Shown: one piece after another, positions 6,835 to 20,946 of the stretch
How the letters are laid out: each line of letters opens with the position of its first letter
Position numbering within the stretch: the first letter of the stretch is position 1
Virus record (IMG/VR): IMGVR_UViG_3300037486_000088
Coordinates: 1 to 41,734 of that record
Direction: 5' to 3' (one strand)
Origin: a virus
Length of the DNA: 41,734 nucleotides
The notes under the pieces: generated by a model
Told to the model about the DNA's origin: nothing
Seen by the model: the letters and a program-made list of their open reading frames with translations, nothing else
The model's database searches: none
Translations under genes and position numbers: made by a program

Positions 6835-6863
6835 TTGACAGGGTGGGGTGACGTGGGTATAGT
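6835..6863 (+). promoter_or_regulatory. Near-consensus sigma-70 promoter for structured RNA and replication genes
   Basis: TTGACA (6835-6840), exactly 17 bases, then TATAGT (6858-6863). The -10 lies inside the first copy of the GGTATAGT motif. The predicted start, about 6870, is the first base of a 15-bp RNA stem. Confidence 0.88.
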
Positions 6864-6869
6864 GGGGAT

Positions 6870-6984
6870 GGCTGGCAGCCATGATAGGTCACGCAAAGTG
6901 AATAATCCGGTCCCGTAGGGACAGCGCCCAGCGGCGGCTTGTCATGGTTGCCAGCCATTACAGGTCATTCCGCTGGGCGTTTTT
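6870..6984 (+). ncRNA. Structured leader or small RNA of about 115 nt
   Basis: From the predicted start, bases 6870-6884 pair with 6942-6956 (15 bp, one G-U). Inside this stem are two small hairpins: TCAC-GCAAA-GTGA (6889-6901) and GTCCC-GTA-GGGAC (6910-6922). The 3' end forms a terminator whose 5' arm (6925-6934) lies inside the closed stem, so the two helices cross: they must either exclude each other or form a pseudoknot. A 22-base direct repeat (18/22) also links 6870-6891 with 6946-6967. It could be a free small RNA or an attenuating leader for the replication gene. No known family recognised. Confidence 0.7.
6925..6984 (+). terminator. Long-loop intrinsic terminator or attenuator
   Basis: A perfect 10-bp stem, CGCCCAGCGG (6925-6934) with CCGCTGGGCG (6970-6979), followed by TTTTT (6980-6984). 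The 35-base loop contains the 3' arm of the leader stem, so formation of one helix should affect the other. The replication gene starts 16 bases downstream. Confidence 0.75.
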
Positions 6985-6999
6985 CATTTGTGAGGCCGT

Positions 7000-7839
7000 A
7001 TGAGCAACAGAGGAACTTACCGAACGATCCACTCGTCGTTGCCAGACGACCCTGACTTCCAACGCCTCTCACCCCAGGCGCAACTGGTATTCTATACAAT
7101 TCGACTTTCGAAAGAACATGGCGCATCGGGTATCTTCAGGTACTACATCGAGGTCATCGCCAGACGTTCAAATCTGTCGCCTGCCAAAGTGTCAGCCTGC
7201 CTGTCAGAGTTGTCAAAATCGAAACCAAGACAGTCGCTTGGGTGGGTCGCGTTCGACGATGTAATTCTCTGGGTGGTGAACGGACTCCGGTACGACCCTC
7301 ACCTCAGCTTGGCTAACGAGAAGCACAAAAAGACCGTTGAAAGAGAGATTTCCGAGTTACCTCGTAGACAATTAATATTAACCTATTGCGATTATTATAA
7401 ATTATCCTACCCATACGATACCCATTCGCTACAAGAATACGAATCCGACTCCGAAGGTAAGGATACCGAAGGTAAGGATACCGATACTAATACATCTCCA
7501 CAGGGAAAAGGTATCCCTGTGGAGCCGGTGGTGTGGGGTGCTCGGTTTTGCCTCATCCAGAAATACAACCGTGAGAGTCCTGAAAACGTCCCGACTGTCG
7601 CCAGCCCATCACGAGAACGCACAAAACGAGAGGCAACCTATCTGCGAATGTTCCCAGAGGAGTGTTGGTGGACGGAGACGTTTCTCCAATATCACCGGAG
7701 TCGGTTTCTAAGCGGGAAGACTATTCCAGGAAACGGACATGGAGCATTCAAGCCGGACTTTGACTGGCTTTTAAGTAGGGGCAAGGACGGTATAGAGAAC
7801 TGTGTAAAGGTGCATGACGGGAGGTATCGTGATGGCTAA
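7000..7839 (+). CDS. Phage replication initiator / replisome organiser
   Basis: A 279-residue protein. The N-terminal half looks like a winged-helix DNA-binding domain (LSPQAQLVFYTIRLSKEHG, then RSNLSPAKVSACLSELSK). An acidic, low-complexity middle follows (SDSEGKDTEGKDTDTNT). The C-terminus has FKPDFDWLLSRGKDGIENCV and ends VHDGRY, the pattern of O-like or DnaD-like initiators that load the host helicase. GAGG at 6992-6995 precedes ATG 7000. As in lambda O, the DNA encoding the linker is AT-rich and carries repeats, so the gene may contain the origin. It lies behind a terminator-bearing leader, so its expression is probably attenuated. Confidence 0.75.
   Translation: MSNRGTYRTIHSSLPDDPDFQRLSPQAQLVFYTIRLSKEHGASGIFRYYIEVIARRSNLSPAKVSACLSELSKSKPRQSLGWVAFDDVILWVVNGLRYDPHLSLANEKHKKTVEREISELPRRQLILTYCDYYKLSYPYDTHSLQEYESDSEGKDTEGKDTDTNTSPQGKGIPVEPVVWGARFCLIQKYNRESPENVPTVASPSRERTKREATYLRMFPEECWWTETFLQYHRSRFLSGKTIPGNGHGAFKPDFDWLLSRGKDGIENCVKVHDGRYRDG
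7367..7524. other. Candidate replication origin inside initiator gene
   Basis: An AT-rich block (7367-7407) is followed by GATACC (7417-7422), then a 15-bp unit repeated exactly twice (7453-7467 and 7468-7482; core GGTAAGGATACC), then GATAC again (7483). Next is a perfect 11-bp inverted repeat, 7496-7506 with 7514-7524, whose loop side contains GGTATCC, the reverse complement of the repeat core. The combination of iterons, AT-rich segment and position inside the initiator gene matches the lambdoid plan. Origin function is inferred. Confidence 0.55.
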
Positions 7840-8389
7840 GAACCGTTTCGGAGATGATGTCGAGGTCAACGAACACTCCGGGTATAGTCAAGACGACGAC
7901 CTGACGTACGTCATCCCGGCGCCGAACCAGCACACGAAAGACCTGACGATTACGGTGCGGTGCTGCCTGTGCCGCAACCCACTCAAGACGGGCAAGGGCG
8001 GATGGTGCGAGAACTGCCAGACCTATCCCATCAACATCACGCCATTCCGATCCTGTAGCCAAGGCCATAAAGTCAATCCAGACGGGTGGTGCTTTGCGTG
8101 CGATGCCTACGTTTCCACGGCCTTGGAGCCGATCAACGCGCAGTGGATTGACACGGGTAAGATCCCCAAGCGACTCGCCAAGGAGCAGGTGCGCGATTTG
8201 GTTGCCGGTATAGTCGCCAAGTTGTCCGGTCCCGGGTGGCCTGACAAGATCGTGCCGCTGCGCCGGGACATGATTCCCAGGTCGTGGAAGCGGGGGCCGC
8301 TCAAGGTGGTGGGCCAGACGCCGTTGTGGTATGACATCGTGTTGCCAGCCGGTATAGTGGAAACGCATGACGAGTCGATCCCGTTCTAG
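7832..8389 (+). CDS. Cysteine-rich zinc-binding protein
   Basis: A 185-residue protein with three to four zinc-type pairs in its first half (CCLC, CENC, CSQGH, CFAC), followed by an ordinary folded C-terminal half. I choose ATG 7832, 7 bases after GGGAGG (7819-7824), over the in-frame ATG 7814; it overlaps the initiator stop. Three GGTATAGT copies lie in it, read in two different frames (GYS and GIV). Its place beside the initiator suggests a replication accessory, such as a DNA-binding or primase-like role, but no family is recognised. Confidence 0.7.
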   Translation: MAKNRFGDDVEVNEHSGYSQDDDLTYVIPAPNQHTKDLTITVRCCLCRNPLKTGKGGWCENCQTYPINITPFRSCSQGHKVNPDGWCFACDAYVSTALEPINAQWIDTGKIPKRLAKEQVRDLVAGIVAKLSGPGWPDKIVPLRRDMIPRSWKRGPLKVVGQTPLWYDIVLPAGIVETHDESIPF

Positions 8390-8561
8390 GCCACCAGACG
8401 CGCTAGGAGGCCCCAAATTGCCACGATCTCCCGGCAAGGCTAGCCAAGTAGCCTCCCGCGTCTGTCCCCACTGTGGCGCCCGGTATAGTCTCGCCTGGAA
8501 ACATCCGTGGTGTTGGTCGTGTCTAAAGGAGTATACCAATGGCAATGACCGTAAGTCTTGA
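8367..8561 (+). CDS. Small zinc-ribbon protein
   Basis: A 64-residue protein with a basic, Pro/Ser-rich N-terminus and a compact zinc ribbon, CPHCGARYSLAWKHPWCWSC. It overlaps both the preceding gene (22 bases) and the following HNH gene (23 bases). A GGTATAGT copy at 8482 encodes part of ARYSLAW between the two cysteine pairs. Confidence 0.6.
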   Translation: MTSRSRSRPPDALGGPKLPRSPGKASQVASRVCPHCGARYSLAWKHPWCWSCLKEYTNGNDRKS

Positions 8562-9015
8562 CGAACAATTCTGGAGCAAGGTTGACCGAAAGGGACCAGA
8601 AGAATGCTGGAACTGGAAAGCCTCTGTCACTAGTGAGGGGTATGGTCAAATTAGCAGGTGGGGCAAAATGAATAAGGCCCACCGTGTTTCGTGGAGCATT
8701 CATTACGGGTATTGGCCCCCAGAAAGATTGGTTGTCTGTCATCATTGCGATAACCGCAAATGTGTTAATCCTAATCACCTGTTTTTAGGGACTCAAAGAG
8801 ACAACTTTTACGACGCGGTATCTAAGGGACTTGTGTTTCTCAAGCTAAACCAAGACGGTGTGAATAAGGCAAGAGAGTTGTTTGCCACCGGTCGGTATAG
8901 TATGCGTGCGATAGCAAGAATGCTTGACGTGAACCACAGCACCATAAGCAGGACACTCTCCGGTGAGTTATACAAAGCTCCGCCCCCACCGCGCACGGCA
9001 GGGGCGGGAGGTTAG
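8539..9015 (+). CDS. HNH homing-type endonuclease with C-terminal helix-turn-helix
   Basis: A 158-residue protein. The HNH_3-like core contains WNWKASVTSEGYGQI, then HRVSW and CHHCDNRKCVNPNHLFLGT (about residues 67-85). The C-terminal part, FATGRYSMRAIARMLDVNHS, reads as a helix-turn-helix typical of DNA-recognition tails on such nucleases. It is probably a mobile gene without a host role. It ends head-on against the leftward operon, sharing bases with that operon's last stop codon. A GGTATAGT copy lies in the HTH coding part. Confidence 0.85.
   Translation: MAMTVSLDEQFWSKVDRKGPEECWNWKASVTSEGYGQISRWGKMNKAHRVSWSIHYGYWPPERLVVCHHCDNRKCVNPNHLFLGTQRDNFYDAVSKGLVFLKLNQDGVNKARELFATGRYSMRAIARMLDVNHSTISRTLSGELYKAPPPPRTAGAGG
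8980..9007. terminator. Possible bidirectional hairpin between converging operons
   Basis: A 7-bp stem, CCGCCCC (8980-8986) with GGGGCGG (9001-9007), lies at the 3' end of the HNH gene just before the converging stop codons. It lacks a T-run on either strand, so it may act only as an RNA 3'-end stabiliser. Confidence 0.35.
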
Positions 9016-9299
9016 CGGCTGGTGGCCTTGGCGATAATCCCCTTGGACTCGTTTTCCATCTGGTATAGTTCTGCCCAATCCTCAGCGCATACCGTCACGC
9101 CATTGTGCTGGATCTCGTTGACGCGGGATACTTTCTCTGTCAGCCTAGTAAGCATCGCTAGCAACTCCGGCGCGGCCTCGAATAGCGTGGTATAGTTCTT
9201 GGCGAGCGGATTGCTCCAGTTAAACGTGGCAATGCGGGTGCGATACTCGTCAGGTCCGTTTATGCCGTGTCCATCGAATGACAATTCCGGTGTGTGCAT
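9012..9299 (-). CDS. Small phage protein of unknown function
   Basis: A 95-residue protein read leftward from ATG at 9299. A purine-rich AGGAGAGG site precedes the start, so the longer frame to 9428 is not needed. The sequence LFEAAPELLAMLTRLTEKV is a helical motif often seen in small accessory phage proteins. Two GGTATAGT copies (9062, 9189) lie antisense within it. It is the last gene of the leftward operon. Confidence 0.65.
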   Translation of the reverse strand: MHTPELSFDGHGINGPDEYRTRIATFNWSNPLAKNYTTLFEAAPELLAMLTRLTEKVSRVNEIQHNGVTVCAEDWAELYQMENESKGIIAKATSR

Positions 9300-9349
9300 C
9301 GTCCTCTCCTTGCCTCGCGCATGGCGGGAGGCTAGCGGCCGGTGTGGGA

Positions 9350-9559
9350 TTATCTGCGGCCGATGGCGTATGGGCTCTCTCCGACTGCCGGCGACTCTCC
9401 GGGGCCGACAACTCCGGCGCACCCGCAAACGCAGTCGGTCAGCCGCCAGCGCCGGGCGGCCAGACGGGCCGCAGATTCGGTGGCATGCCGGGAAATCAGG
9501 CGCCCTCCGTGAAATTGTGTCGCATAGACTCGCCAGGGGTACTTGTCAGTCCGTCTCAT
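9350..9559 (-). CDS. Small basic protein with cysteine cluster
   Basis: A 69-residue protein starting MRRTDKYPWRVYATQF, then HATESAARLAARRWR and a CVCGCAG cluster. AAGGAG lies just upstream of the start on the minus strand. The N-terminal part looks like a real folded domain, while the C-terminus is Gly/Pro-rich. Function not recognised. Confidence 0.55.
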   Translation of the reverse strand: MRRTDKYPWRVYATQFHGGRLISRHATESAARLAARRWRLTDCVCGCAGVVGPGESPAVGESPYAIGRR

Positions 9560-9598
9560 CGCCCGCTCCTTGGCCTCGCGGCAGGTATAGTCTTGCGT

Positions 9599-9766
9599 TT
9601 ACTCCGTCCACTCCATCCACTGTGCTTCCGGGACGCCAGCATCCAGCATCGGCAGGCCACACGTTGCGCACAAGACGTAGACCATCGCGGGGCCGGTATA
9701 GTCGGTCAGGGTCGCAGGACCGAGCAAGGGTCTCTCGCAAGAGCATGGCACAAGGGTGGGTGTCAT
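9599..9766 (-). CDS. Small zinc-ribbon protein
   Basis: A 55-residue protein with CSC (about residues 8-10) and CATC (about 33-36), probably one zinc site. I choose the start at 9766 because it overlaps the stop of the clamp-loader gene in an ATGA junction. A longer in-frame extension to 9883 lies inside that gene and is rejected. A GGTATAGT copy lies within it. Confidence 0.6.
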   Translation of the reverse strand: MTPTLVPCSCERPLLGPATLTDYTGPAMVYVLCATCGLPMLDAGVPEAQWMEWTE

Positions 9767-10512
9767 GGCGTCATTCCTTTCTGCGCTTTGTCGCGCAACT
9801 TCGCGTTGGCTTCCCGCATCTTGGCAATCTCGGCCAGCATCGCGGCGTCCTTTTGCACGTCCGCCGGTATAGTCGCCATGCACCCCGATTCAACTTCCTG
9901 CAGCATGTCCCGCAGGTTGCACTTGCACCGCTTCGCCAGTGACTCGTACGCCGAAACCGTCTGACCGTTCAATCCCGCGGCGGTCGCAATCTCTTGCGCC
10001 CGCACCGCGAAGGCCGACACAACGCCCTTGTCGGTTAATTCAATCTTGATACAGCGGGACAAGAGCGGGCCCGCGTCAATCTGGCCTTCGAACATGGCGA
10101 CCTGACCGCTTTGCGTCGTGGTAAAGATGAACATGGCCGACTGTGGGATTCGTTCGAGAATGCCAAGCAACTGCCGGATGACCGGTTTCCGCAGACCGTG
10201 AGCCTCGTTAATAATCCAGACGCGGGTGCCATACATTGACCGATACGGCAATTCCCTAGTGATAGCGTCTAGGTCGTCTTGTCCTACCTGATCCGCGCTG
10301 TCAAATTCCGATATGGTCAGCTTTGTTCCTCCCGCTTCTTTCGCCAGGATACGGGCAATCGTCGTCTTGCCCGTACCAGATGGGCCAGAGATCCACACAG
10401 ATTGACCGCCCAAAGACTTGCGGGATATGAGCGATTGACAGACGGTAACGGCGGTCGGCTGGCCTACTACGTCTGACAACTTGTCAGGTCGGTATAGTTC
10501 ATACAATCGCAT
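9763..10512 (-). CDS. Clamp-loader-type AAA+ ATPase (DnaX/RFC small subunit-like)
   Basis: A 249-residue ATPase. It begins MRLYELYRPDKLSDVVGQ, the usual opening of DnaX/RFC subunits, then Walker A GPSGTGKT (residues 43-50), Walker B VWIINEAH (about 98-105) and an SRC motif (LLSRC, 152-154) that carries the arginine finger. NEAH replaces the usual DEAH/DExH acid at the first position. Such proteins load the sliding clamp onto primed DNA. No sliding clamp or polymerase is recognised here, so it may work with host parts. AAGGGGG upstream supports the start at 10512. Copies of GGTATAGT lie near both ends. Confidence 0.8.
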   Translation of the reverse strand: MRLYELYRPDKLSDVVGQPTAVTVCQSLISRKSLGGQSVWISGPSGTGKTTIARILAKEAGGTKLTISEFDSADQVGQDDLDAITRELPYRSMYGTRVWIINEAHGLRKPVIRQLLGILERIPQSAMFIFTTTQSGQVAMFEGQIDAGPLLSRCIKIELTDKGVVSAFAVRAQEIATAAGLNGQTVSAYESLAKRCKCNLRDMLQEVESGCMATIPADVQKDAAMLAEIAKMREANAKLRDKAQKGMTP

Positions 10513-10555: not shown

Positions 10556-11179
10556 TTAGCTTCGCTTGGTATATCCTGCCGCAATGCGATCGGCTATTTC
10601 GTGGTAATACCATGACTTTCCCTTGTCTCCGCGTTTCTCTGCGTCGTCGGCATACTGACGCACCACCACCACCACCTTTACCGCATCCTCCCACGGCAAG
10701 CGGGCCATGGCGCCGCAGTACGGGCAGGAAATGACGGTCCAGACTTCCCCGTCAACGGGCTTCTGGGCGCGGATGCCGATGATGCGAGCCCCCGTGTCAC
10801 TGGTTTTGTAGTCTTTGATCTTTTCATCCTGTGGGCAGGGGTGAAACACGTTGATATTGTACCCACCACCTTTGGAGTGGCAGGAGTGGGTCATGCTGTA
10901 ATGCTCCAGGTCCGCCAGTTCAGGAAACCGCGTCACGTTAATGACTAAATCCCGCTCGTAATCGCTCACGGCTTGCAGGTCGGCCGTGTCTTCGTCGGGG
11001 AACGGGAACCGGAAACGATATGATCCATTATCCCAGTCCGACGGCGCCGTTTCTCCGCCGTCCCGCTTGATCCGGCCATCTTTGCGCCACTCTTGCAGCC
11101 TTGGAAGGGTGACGTAATACAAAGACTCACAGGTTCCCATCTTGTACGACTTGCCGTCTACAAACGCATACTCTCCCAT
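10556..11179 (-). CDS. Protein of unknown function with zinc pair
   Basis: A 207-residue protein. The middle contains HSCHSKGGGYNINVFHPC and a later CPYCGAMARLPW, which could form one metal site. A run of GTG codons gives five valines near the C-terminus. It lies in the leftward operon directly upstream of the clamp loader, so a replication role is possible. AAAGGC precedes the start. No family recognised. Confidence 0.6.
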   Translation of the reverse strand: MGEYAFVDGKSYKMGTCESLYYVTLPRLQEWRKDGRIKRDGGETAPSDWDNGSYRFRFPFPDEDTADLQAVSDYERDLVINVTRFPELADLEHYSMTHSCHSKGGGYNINVFHPCPQDEKIKDYKTSDTGARIIGIRAQKPVDGEVWTVISCPYCGAMARLPWEDAVKVVVVVRQYADDAEKRGDKGKSWYYHEIADRIAAGYTKRS

Positions 11180-19522: not shown

Positions 19523-20440
19523 GTGTCAGTTACCATTGACTATGCGTTCATCGTCGCGGTGGACCGGAACGTCCAGCACCTCGCACAGGTGACGGAATCA
19601 GCGTTCCGTGGGTCCGTCCGCACCAAGCCGGTGACGGGGAAGGCGTTCGACGCCAACCGCCTCGGCCGGGTCGAGATGGCCCAGAAGACCAACCGGCACG
19701 CTCCCACCTTCATCGCCAACCCCGAGCACGACAAGCGGCGCGGCCAGATTCTCGACTACGAGGTCGGCGTCCTGCTGGACGAGGAAGATGAGTTGAAGAC
19801 GCTCATCTCCCCGCAGTCCGAGTACGCCATGGCCCTGGCCTACGCCCGCAACCGCCGCTTCGACAACACCGTCCTGACGGCGCTCCATGCCAACGCCATG
19901 ACGGTGGCCCCGAGCGGCGCGACCGAAACCGTGAACGCCAACGGCGGCGTCCTCACCGCGTTCACCGGGTTCGACGGCACCGCGTCCGTCAACCACACCA
20001 TCGCCAACGGGTCCACGGGCCTGACCGTGGCCAAGGTCCGCCAGTGCAAGCGGTTGCTGGACCTCCAGCAGACTCCGCAGTCTGGACGGCACTTCGTCAC
20101 CTCCAGCTACGGCCTGGAGGACTTGCTGGCCGACCCACAGGTCACGTCGTCCGACTTCAACACGCTCCGCGCCCTGGAGGCGGGGACGCTCAACGGCCGC
20201 TGGATGGGCTTCCAGTGGCATTTCAGCGACCTCCTGTCCATCTACACCGGCAACATCCAGTACAACTACGCCTGGCACGAGTCGGCCATCGTGATCGGGG
20301 AGGGCGCAATCCGGGAGTTGTCAATCGACAAGCGGCCCGACCTCTCCAACGCGATCCAGGTGTTGGCCAAGTGCTCGCACGGAGGAGTGCGCGTGGAGGA
20401 ATCCAAGGTCGTGGAAGTGGACATAGACACTTCGGCTTGA
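19523..20440 (+). CDS. Major capsid protein
   Basis: A 305-residue protein of the T7 gp10-like capsid group. Supporting segments are AFRGSVRTKPVTGKAF near the N-terminus, then ILDYEVGVLLDEEDELKTL, QTPQSGRHFVTSSYGLEDLL and IQYNYAWHESAIVIGEG. It forms the icosahedral shell with the HK97-type fold. GTG 19523 is 7 bases after GGAGGG (19510-19515). It follows the scaffold gene and is followed by a homing endonuclease gene and a probable decoration protein. Confidence 0.85.
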   Translation: MSVTIDYAFIVAVDRNVQHLAQVTESAFRGSVRTKPVTGKAFDANRLGRVEMAQKTNRHAPTFIANPEHDKRRGQILDYEVGVLLDEEDELKTLISPQSEYAMALAYARNRRFDNTVLTALHANAMTVAPSGATETVNANGGVLTAFTGFDGTASVNHTIANGSTGLTVAKVRQCKRLLDLQQTPQSGRHFVTSSYGLEDLLADPQVTSSDFNTLRALEAGTLNGRWMGFQWHFSDLLSIYTGNIQYNYAWHESAIVIGEGAIRELSIDKRPDLSNAIQVLAKCSHGGVRVEESKVVEVDIDTSA

Positions 20441-20466
20441 ACGATGTGATTCTAAAGGATTTGCTG

Positions 20467-20946
20467 ATGCGAACAACACTTGAAATAGCATGGGCGGCAG
20501 GGTTCTTAGAGGGTGAGGGAACATTCAACCTCACCCCGACGAAGGCCCTCTTCGTAAATGCAACGCAGGTCCAGAGACAACCTCTGGAGGTTTTGCAGCG
20601 CATTTTCGGAGGAAAGATCTTTGGCCCGTATCATCCTTCCAGCAAAACCGGAAAGGCCAACCCATCGTTTCGGTGGACGGCCACCACCAGTTTGGCTGCG
20701 AGTGTGATGATGACGGTCTACGGAATGATGTCGCCCAAGCGCCAATCTCGCATCCGCGAATGCCTTACCGTATGGAAAACAACCGCACACATGGGTCTTC
20801 GTAATCACCGGAAGACCCATTGTCCGGCTGGGCACCCATACGACGAAGCGAACACGTATCACACCAAGGGTAAGGTTGGAAGAAGCTGCCGAGCGTGTAG
20901 GAACCACTTACGAAATGCGCGGGCAGCCATTCGGTCTTGGACCTAA
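20467..20946 (+). CDS. Free-standing LAGLIDADG homing endonuclease
   Basis: A 159-residue protein with the motif IAWAAGFLEGEGTF (about residues 7-20), the single LAGLIDADG helix of homodimeric homing enzymes. The C-terminus adds a zinc-finger-like CPAGHP...CRACRNH that may help bind DNA. It lies in an otherwise continuous capsid operon, 26 bases after the capsid stop, with more A and T than its neighbours, which suggests insertion. Its likely target is the equivalent junction in related phages. Confidence 0.8.
   Translation: MRTTLEIAWAAGFLEGEGTFNLTPTKALFVNATQVQRQPLEVLQRIFGGKIFGPYHPSSKTGKANPSFRWTATTSLAASVMMTVYGMMSPKRQSRIRECLTVWKTTAHMGLRNHRKTHCPAGHPYDEANTYHTKGKVGRSCRACRNHLRNARAAIRSWT

Follow-up and report, generated by a model that had tools for sequence, protein, structure and literature searches.

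Site-specific nicks in phage DNA are a decades-old finding for which no function has been agreed upon. The nick motif of phage tf was mapped experimentally as TACT/RTGMC, and LUZ24 belongs to this nick-motif group (PMC3517423). In phage Rembedalsseter, 13 nicks are located at exactly 13 one-strand copies of WACTRTGAC; this motif is conserved in 60 relatives, lies mostly in coding sequences and is concentrated on the right in TerL-oriented genomes (PMC11780129).

The window (the whole 41,734-nt stretch of viral DNA analyzed here) carries the octamer GGTATAGT, which reads as ACTATACC on the − strand. Its 12 sites could be strand-specific nick sites, densely clustered and of a new sequence. This reading is ranked first, tentatively, its probability being just short of even. 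The first-pass annotation, which had proposed stoperators, priming or fork sites, or modified promoters, did not include this closest known match, the strand-locked nick motifs of tf, LUZ24 and Rembedalsseter.

The octamer cluster and its gene context

The 41.7 kb record is that of a podovirus, with lysis-type genes at the left end, head and tail genes running rightward from about 14 kb, and early genes between them. The structural genes include TerL and a portal of phrog_332, whose best named matches are Pelagibacter phages (30–36% identity). An HNH endonuclease-like ORF at 20044–20946 overlaps, in another frame, the end of the major head protein ORF (19523–20440).

All octamer copies are confined to positions 6856–10498 (3.64 kb). 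This stretch includes a gene for a putative replication initiation protein (7000–7839, +; phrog_19658, E 2.4e-5) and, just behind it, a Cys-rich Zn-ribbon-like gene (7832–8389, +). These are accompanied by an HNH endonuclease gene with a C-terminal HTH (8539–9015, +; PF13392, PF13936), a gene for a small Cys-containing protein (9599–9766, −) and a clamp-loader-like AAA gene (9763–10512, −; phrog_5846, E 9e-32). The Zn-ribbon protein has no match in family searches or among known phages, and its AlphaFold model (pLDDT 42) was set aside.

The first site (6856–6863) is intergenic and contains the −10 element TATAGT of a promoter located 5′ of the initiator gene. Three sites are in the sense orientation inside the Zn-ribbon gene, at 7881–7888 (encoding GYS), 8207–8214 (GIV) and 8351–8358 (GIV). 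Two more sense sites encode RYS, at 8482–8489 in a small Cys-rich ORF (8418–8561) and at 8894–8901 in the HNH gene. Antisense sites are found at 9062–9069 and 9189–9196 in the gene 9012–9299, at 9695–9702 in the gene 9599–9766, and at 9866–9873 and 10491–10498 in the clamp-loader-like gene. The remaining site (9584–9591) lies between two leftward genes. In total, the sense sites number five, as do the antisense sites in leftward genes; the other two are intergenic, and all three phases are used. Neighboring sites are 111–1025 nt apart, and no consistent hairpin structure is observed at the 12 sites.

Counting over both strands of the whole record gave 12 exact copies on the + strand and none on the − strand. 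Dinucleotide shuffles of the window (n = 100) produced a mean of 0.35 copies and a maximum of 3. Markov models of orders 1–3 predict 0.1–0.3 copies (0.11 for order 2, 0.28 for order 3). Under uniform placement, the clustering of 12 sites in 3.64 kb has an analytic p of about 3e-11, and the strand lock taken alone has p = 5e-4. In a blind k-mer scan of the window, GGTATAGT ranks first among over-represented 8-mers (−log10 p about 20), and the runner-up (10.5) is the same octamer shifted by one base. Chance as the source of the copies is rejected by the shuffles, the Markov models and the placement and strand tests.

Codon usage is rejected as well. Synonymous resampling with the phage's own codon usage and the proteins kept (3000 trials) gave a mean of 1.3 and a maximum of 4 copies, compared with 10 observed in genes, and so codon choice does not explain them. 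At several sites the codons are rare ones: ATA accounts for 7% of Ile, AGT for 9% of Ser and CTA for 6% of Leu. The octamer is therefore selected as DNA, beyond the amino-acid sequence. A literature search for GGTATAGT returned no paper on a phage, as judged by title.

The core has sharp edges, with eight invariant positions over 15 sites (12 in the window and three in the relative described below), a weak preference for C at −2 and −1, and C or T after the core. Near copies occur on the + strand at 7789 (GGTATAGA), 7823 (GGTATCGT) and 8639 (GGTATGGT), and also on the − strand at 7415, 7720 and 8530.

The first-pass annotation had listed the same 12 positions, on the + strand only, together with the near copy at 7789, and both observations are confirmed. 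Its view that codon selection could not account for sites in different reading frames also stands, and in the 8-mer count it called for, the octamer comes first. Its count of six or seven antisense sites has to be reduced to five, the site at 9584 being between leftward genes. Of the flanks it described, GCC before and CGCC after, the preceding weak C at −2 and −1 is retained, and CGCC after the core is not general.

A distant relative and other phages

A search for paired CGGTATAGT, in which two copies were required, yielded 60 new loci. Among them was contig L111 (12,158 nt, GC 0.64, a fragment), the one real relative found by the motif-only scan. It encodes homologues of the Zn-ribbon protein (51% amino-acid identity), the product of the gene 9599–9766 (45%), TerL (38%) and the portal (33%). 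Three copies of GGTATAGT are present, all on a common strand, the same as in the window. Two of them are located in the homologue of the Zn-ribbon gene, behind a gene for a replication initiator or primosomal protein. The Zn-ribbon genes share 59% DNA identity, and the octamers of L111 are offset from those at 8207 and 8351 by one and about five codons, respectively; the motif is thus retained although its exact position has changed.

Three + strand near copies are found in the same 1.1 kb of L111. Since the scan required two copies, two of those in L111 are not independent evidence. Independent evidence is provided by the homology, the placement within the same gene, the third copy, the shared strand and the three near copies. 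At the level of sequence, this distant relative retains the octamer in the corresponding gene and without a change of strand. The earlier description of the sites as asymmetric, DNA-level features tied to a replication locus is supported; the association with the neighborhood of the initiator holds in L111.

Relatives identified by the clamp loader, terminase, portal, 10556–11179 and Zn-ribbon proteins, which are only distant phages sharing single modules, lack the cluster. No comparable non-repetitive strand-locked octamer is present in four portal relatives (L062–L065). One of these, Vibrio phage Rostov 6 (L065), has about 10 scattered copies of palindromic GTGTCGAC/GTCGACAC, possibly an operator or another dyad site.

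Two further contigs from the pair scan, L109 (three copies) and L080 (four copies), were rejected as relatives, having no homology to the window; their copies could be due to chance. In L109 (4.8 kb), GGTATAGT occurs at 2360, 2511 and 3639 on one strand, antisense to helicase-like and primase-like frames, which may likewise be chance. A three-copy pattern scan gave 33 matches, and those inspected were mostly in-frame tandem-repeat genes or low-GC repeats. The low-GC contig L036 has repeats with the core ATACCCTGGGTATAGTT every about 70–170 nt, unrelated to the window.

Possible promoters and regulatory sites and a candidate origin

A −35-like hexamer at a distance of 16–18 nt accompanies two of the 12 sites: 6856 (TTGACA, 17 nt; 11/12 match, near-consensus) and 8351 (ATGACA, 16 nt; 10/12). 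The other ten lack a −35 element, and so the sites as a set are not sigma-70 promoters. The first-pass annotation had correctly recognized the promoter at 6856 and had seen no matching TTGACA at the other copies it checked; the site at 8351 adds a second copy with a −35-like hexamer.

The near-consensus promoter at 6856 and the one at 8351 are compatible with modified RNA polymerase promoters linked to the clamp loader, similar to T4 late promoters, in which GGTATAGT would serve as the −10 element. We consider this very improbable: apart from the ten sites without a −35, half of the sites are not sense to genes, the cluster is missing in phages with a 62–64% identical clamp loader, and no clamp loader was found in the 12 kb contig of L111, a fragment. 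The same contig yielded no HNH homologue, and its counterpart of the 6835 promoter has TATGAT and lacks the octamer. Taken together, these features of L111 argue against both clamp-loader-linked promoters and a conserved operator. The TATGAT of L111 also implies that the site at 6856 is possibly only a promoter −10.

The location of one site over a −10 could alternatively be attributed to an asymmetric regulator that covers this promoter and stalls transcription at the other sites. A precedent is the L5 repressor with its 20–30 asymmetric sites of 13–14 bp, most of them not at promoters, oriented with transcription and distributed genome-wide (PMC6550527). Compared with L5 by this published description, the window is similar in having an asymmetric repeated site with one copy at an early promoter. 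However, stoperators follow transcription, whereas the orientation of the window sites is strand-fixed and independent of it (five sense, five antisense), and they are restricted to one 3.6 kb stretch. The scanned proteins, which include many small ORFs without a family, yielded no repressor or integrase. L111 does not retain the promoter-associated site either. The stoperators suggested in the first-pass annotation are not upheld in their L5 form, nor are its clamp-loader-linked promoters; a stoperator-like regulator in general is improbable and ranks third.

The region between the promoter and the initiator gene has features of its own. Just upstream of the initiator gene, both the window (6835–6984) and L111 (about 9975–10137, −) have a sigma-70-like promoter and, behind it, a structured leader of about 120 nt. 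In this leader, a long-range helix (in the window between 6868–6884 and 6942–6958) is in competition with a terminator-like stem (CGCCCAGCGG...CCGCTGGGCGTTTTT). The segments that pair have different sequences in the window and in L111, and the pairing is kept nonetheless. Comparison of the leader with Rfam gave no credible match; an attenuator or a small RNA is possible. The near-palindromic 15-mers ATGGCTGGCAGCCAT and ATGGTTGCCAGCCAT at 6868–6882 and 6944–6958, downstream of the 6835 promoter, could also be operators.

The AT profile reveals an AT-rich stretch at about 7321–7440 inside the putative initiator gene, a candidate origin judging from composition and gene position. Beside it, at 7454–7483, a tandem GAAGGTAAGGATACC (two units) encodes a low-complexity linker and could be an origin feature. 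The initiator gene of L111 also contains an AT-rich stretch, and in both genomes these stretches are just upstream of the cluster, which begins around the end of the initiator gene.

Such an arrangement would suit polar, origin-linked replication sites, in which GGTATAGT is read by the initiator, the Zn-ribbon protein or the primosome. The + strand could, for example, be the lagging-strand template of a rightward fork starting in the initiator gene, and the sites could be used for helicase or primase loading or for fixing the fork direction. The Zn-ribbon gene, as a conserved early neighbor, is consistent with this. On the other hand, scattered exact octamers 80–600 nt apart occur in no known phage origin, the sites have no hairpins, the site at 6856 is on the other side of the inferred origin, and that origin is placed by composition and gene position only. 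Polar replication sites rank second and are unlikely, though less so than a regulator.

Iterons of the lambda O type, closely spaced repeats in an initiator gene, resemble the window in that repeats lie next to an initiator gene containing an AT-rich stretch. The octamers, in contrast, are scattered and single, downstream of the initiator and 111–1025 nt apart, without the close spacing of iterons. A new class of polar replication element may also be envisaged, with scattered strand-locked octamers behind the initiator gene. Either a phage protein (the initiator or one of the Cys-rich early proteins) would read them, or their nicking as a dense array would supply 3′ ends pointing in one direction, for replication or for a rolling-circle switch; we give this perhaps one chance in four.

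Possible strand-specific nicking and known nick motifs

The blind k-mer scan that detected GGTATAGT recovers known nick motifs. In tf, the top k-mer is ACTGTGAC/TACTGTGAC (12/0 and 11/0 copies on the two strands), which is the mapped nick motif, and in LUZ24 the scan recovers TACTATGAC (7/0), the predicted one. TACTRTGMC itself has strand counts of 14/0 in tf and 9/0 in LUZ24. The window sites are located at 82–91% of the TerL-oriented genome, 3.9–7.5 kb upstream of the large terminase gene and thus on its upstream side, and the strand of ACTATACC is opposite to TerL, as in tf. In k-mer signature, strand and TerL-relative position, the octamer matches the known nick motifs.

Seven of the eight positions of ACTATACC match ACTRTGMC, and 0.55% of random octamers match equally well. 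This resemblance was noticed post hoc with several consensus families considered and is only suggestive. The tf consensus TACTRTGMC was tested and has no match in the window; for this reason, we do not assign the sites to the tf family. That the window sites work like the nick sites of this family is plausible by analogy, with the balance leaning slightly against it.

For strand-specific nicking, we infer the nicking of the sites, the strand and bond, the enzyme and the timing as follows. The octamer would be recognized by a system with which this phage lineage processes its DNA strand-specifically. Such a system would most likely be a site-specific nickase introducing single-strand interruptions, as known from tf, Rembedalsseter, phiKMV and T5. 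On the model of TACT/RTGMC in tf, the − strand would be cut as ACT/ATACC. Nicks would arise late in infection or in virion DNA, and their sealing would follow at an early stage of the next infection; such timing and early sealing are reportedly found in phage phikF77.

The HNH protein (8539–9015) is a candidate nickase. The 12 sites have their mean position within its gene, and it is 48% identical to LUZ24 gp40 over 94 amino acids, with LUZ24 gp30 also matching. No match to it was found among tf proteins or solved structures.

If the sites are nicked, a new strand-locked motif packed beside an initiator and persisting though displaced would tie such motifs to replication. The cluster offers a compact test bed, with one 3.6 kb fragment and few candidate proteins. 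The blind k-mer scan, recovering the tf and LUZ24 motifs, could be used for strand-processing systems in other virus genomes.

The sites of phiKMV-like phages and T5 are one-strand motifs, as in the window, with different sequences. GCGCGGTG, which we take to be the T5 nick-site sequence, is not clustered in the window, and the phiKMV motif is absent from it. Nick sites of phiKMV overlap annotated phage promoters, as does the site at 6856, but the phiKMV motif occurs only three times in that phage, compared with 12 copies here. These three copies are not recovered by the k-mer scan, which therefore misses low-copy systems.

What speaks most strongly against nicking is how densely the sites cluster, together with their different sequence and the near copies on both strands. 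The sites of tf and LUZ24 are spread over much of the genome, whereas those of the window all lie in 3.6 kb; near copies on both strands distinguish the window from tf; and ACTATACC differs from the TACTRTGMC or WACTRTGAC of tf, LUZ24/PaP3 and Rembedalsseter. Common to tf, the LUZ24-PaP3 group, Rembedalsseter and the window is a short exact motif in about 7–14 one-strand copies, which lie in genes in both sense and antisense orientation, on the strand opposite to TerL and on the TerL-upstream side; the motifs of tf, LUZ24 and the window are recovered by the same blind scan.
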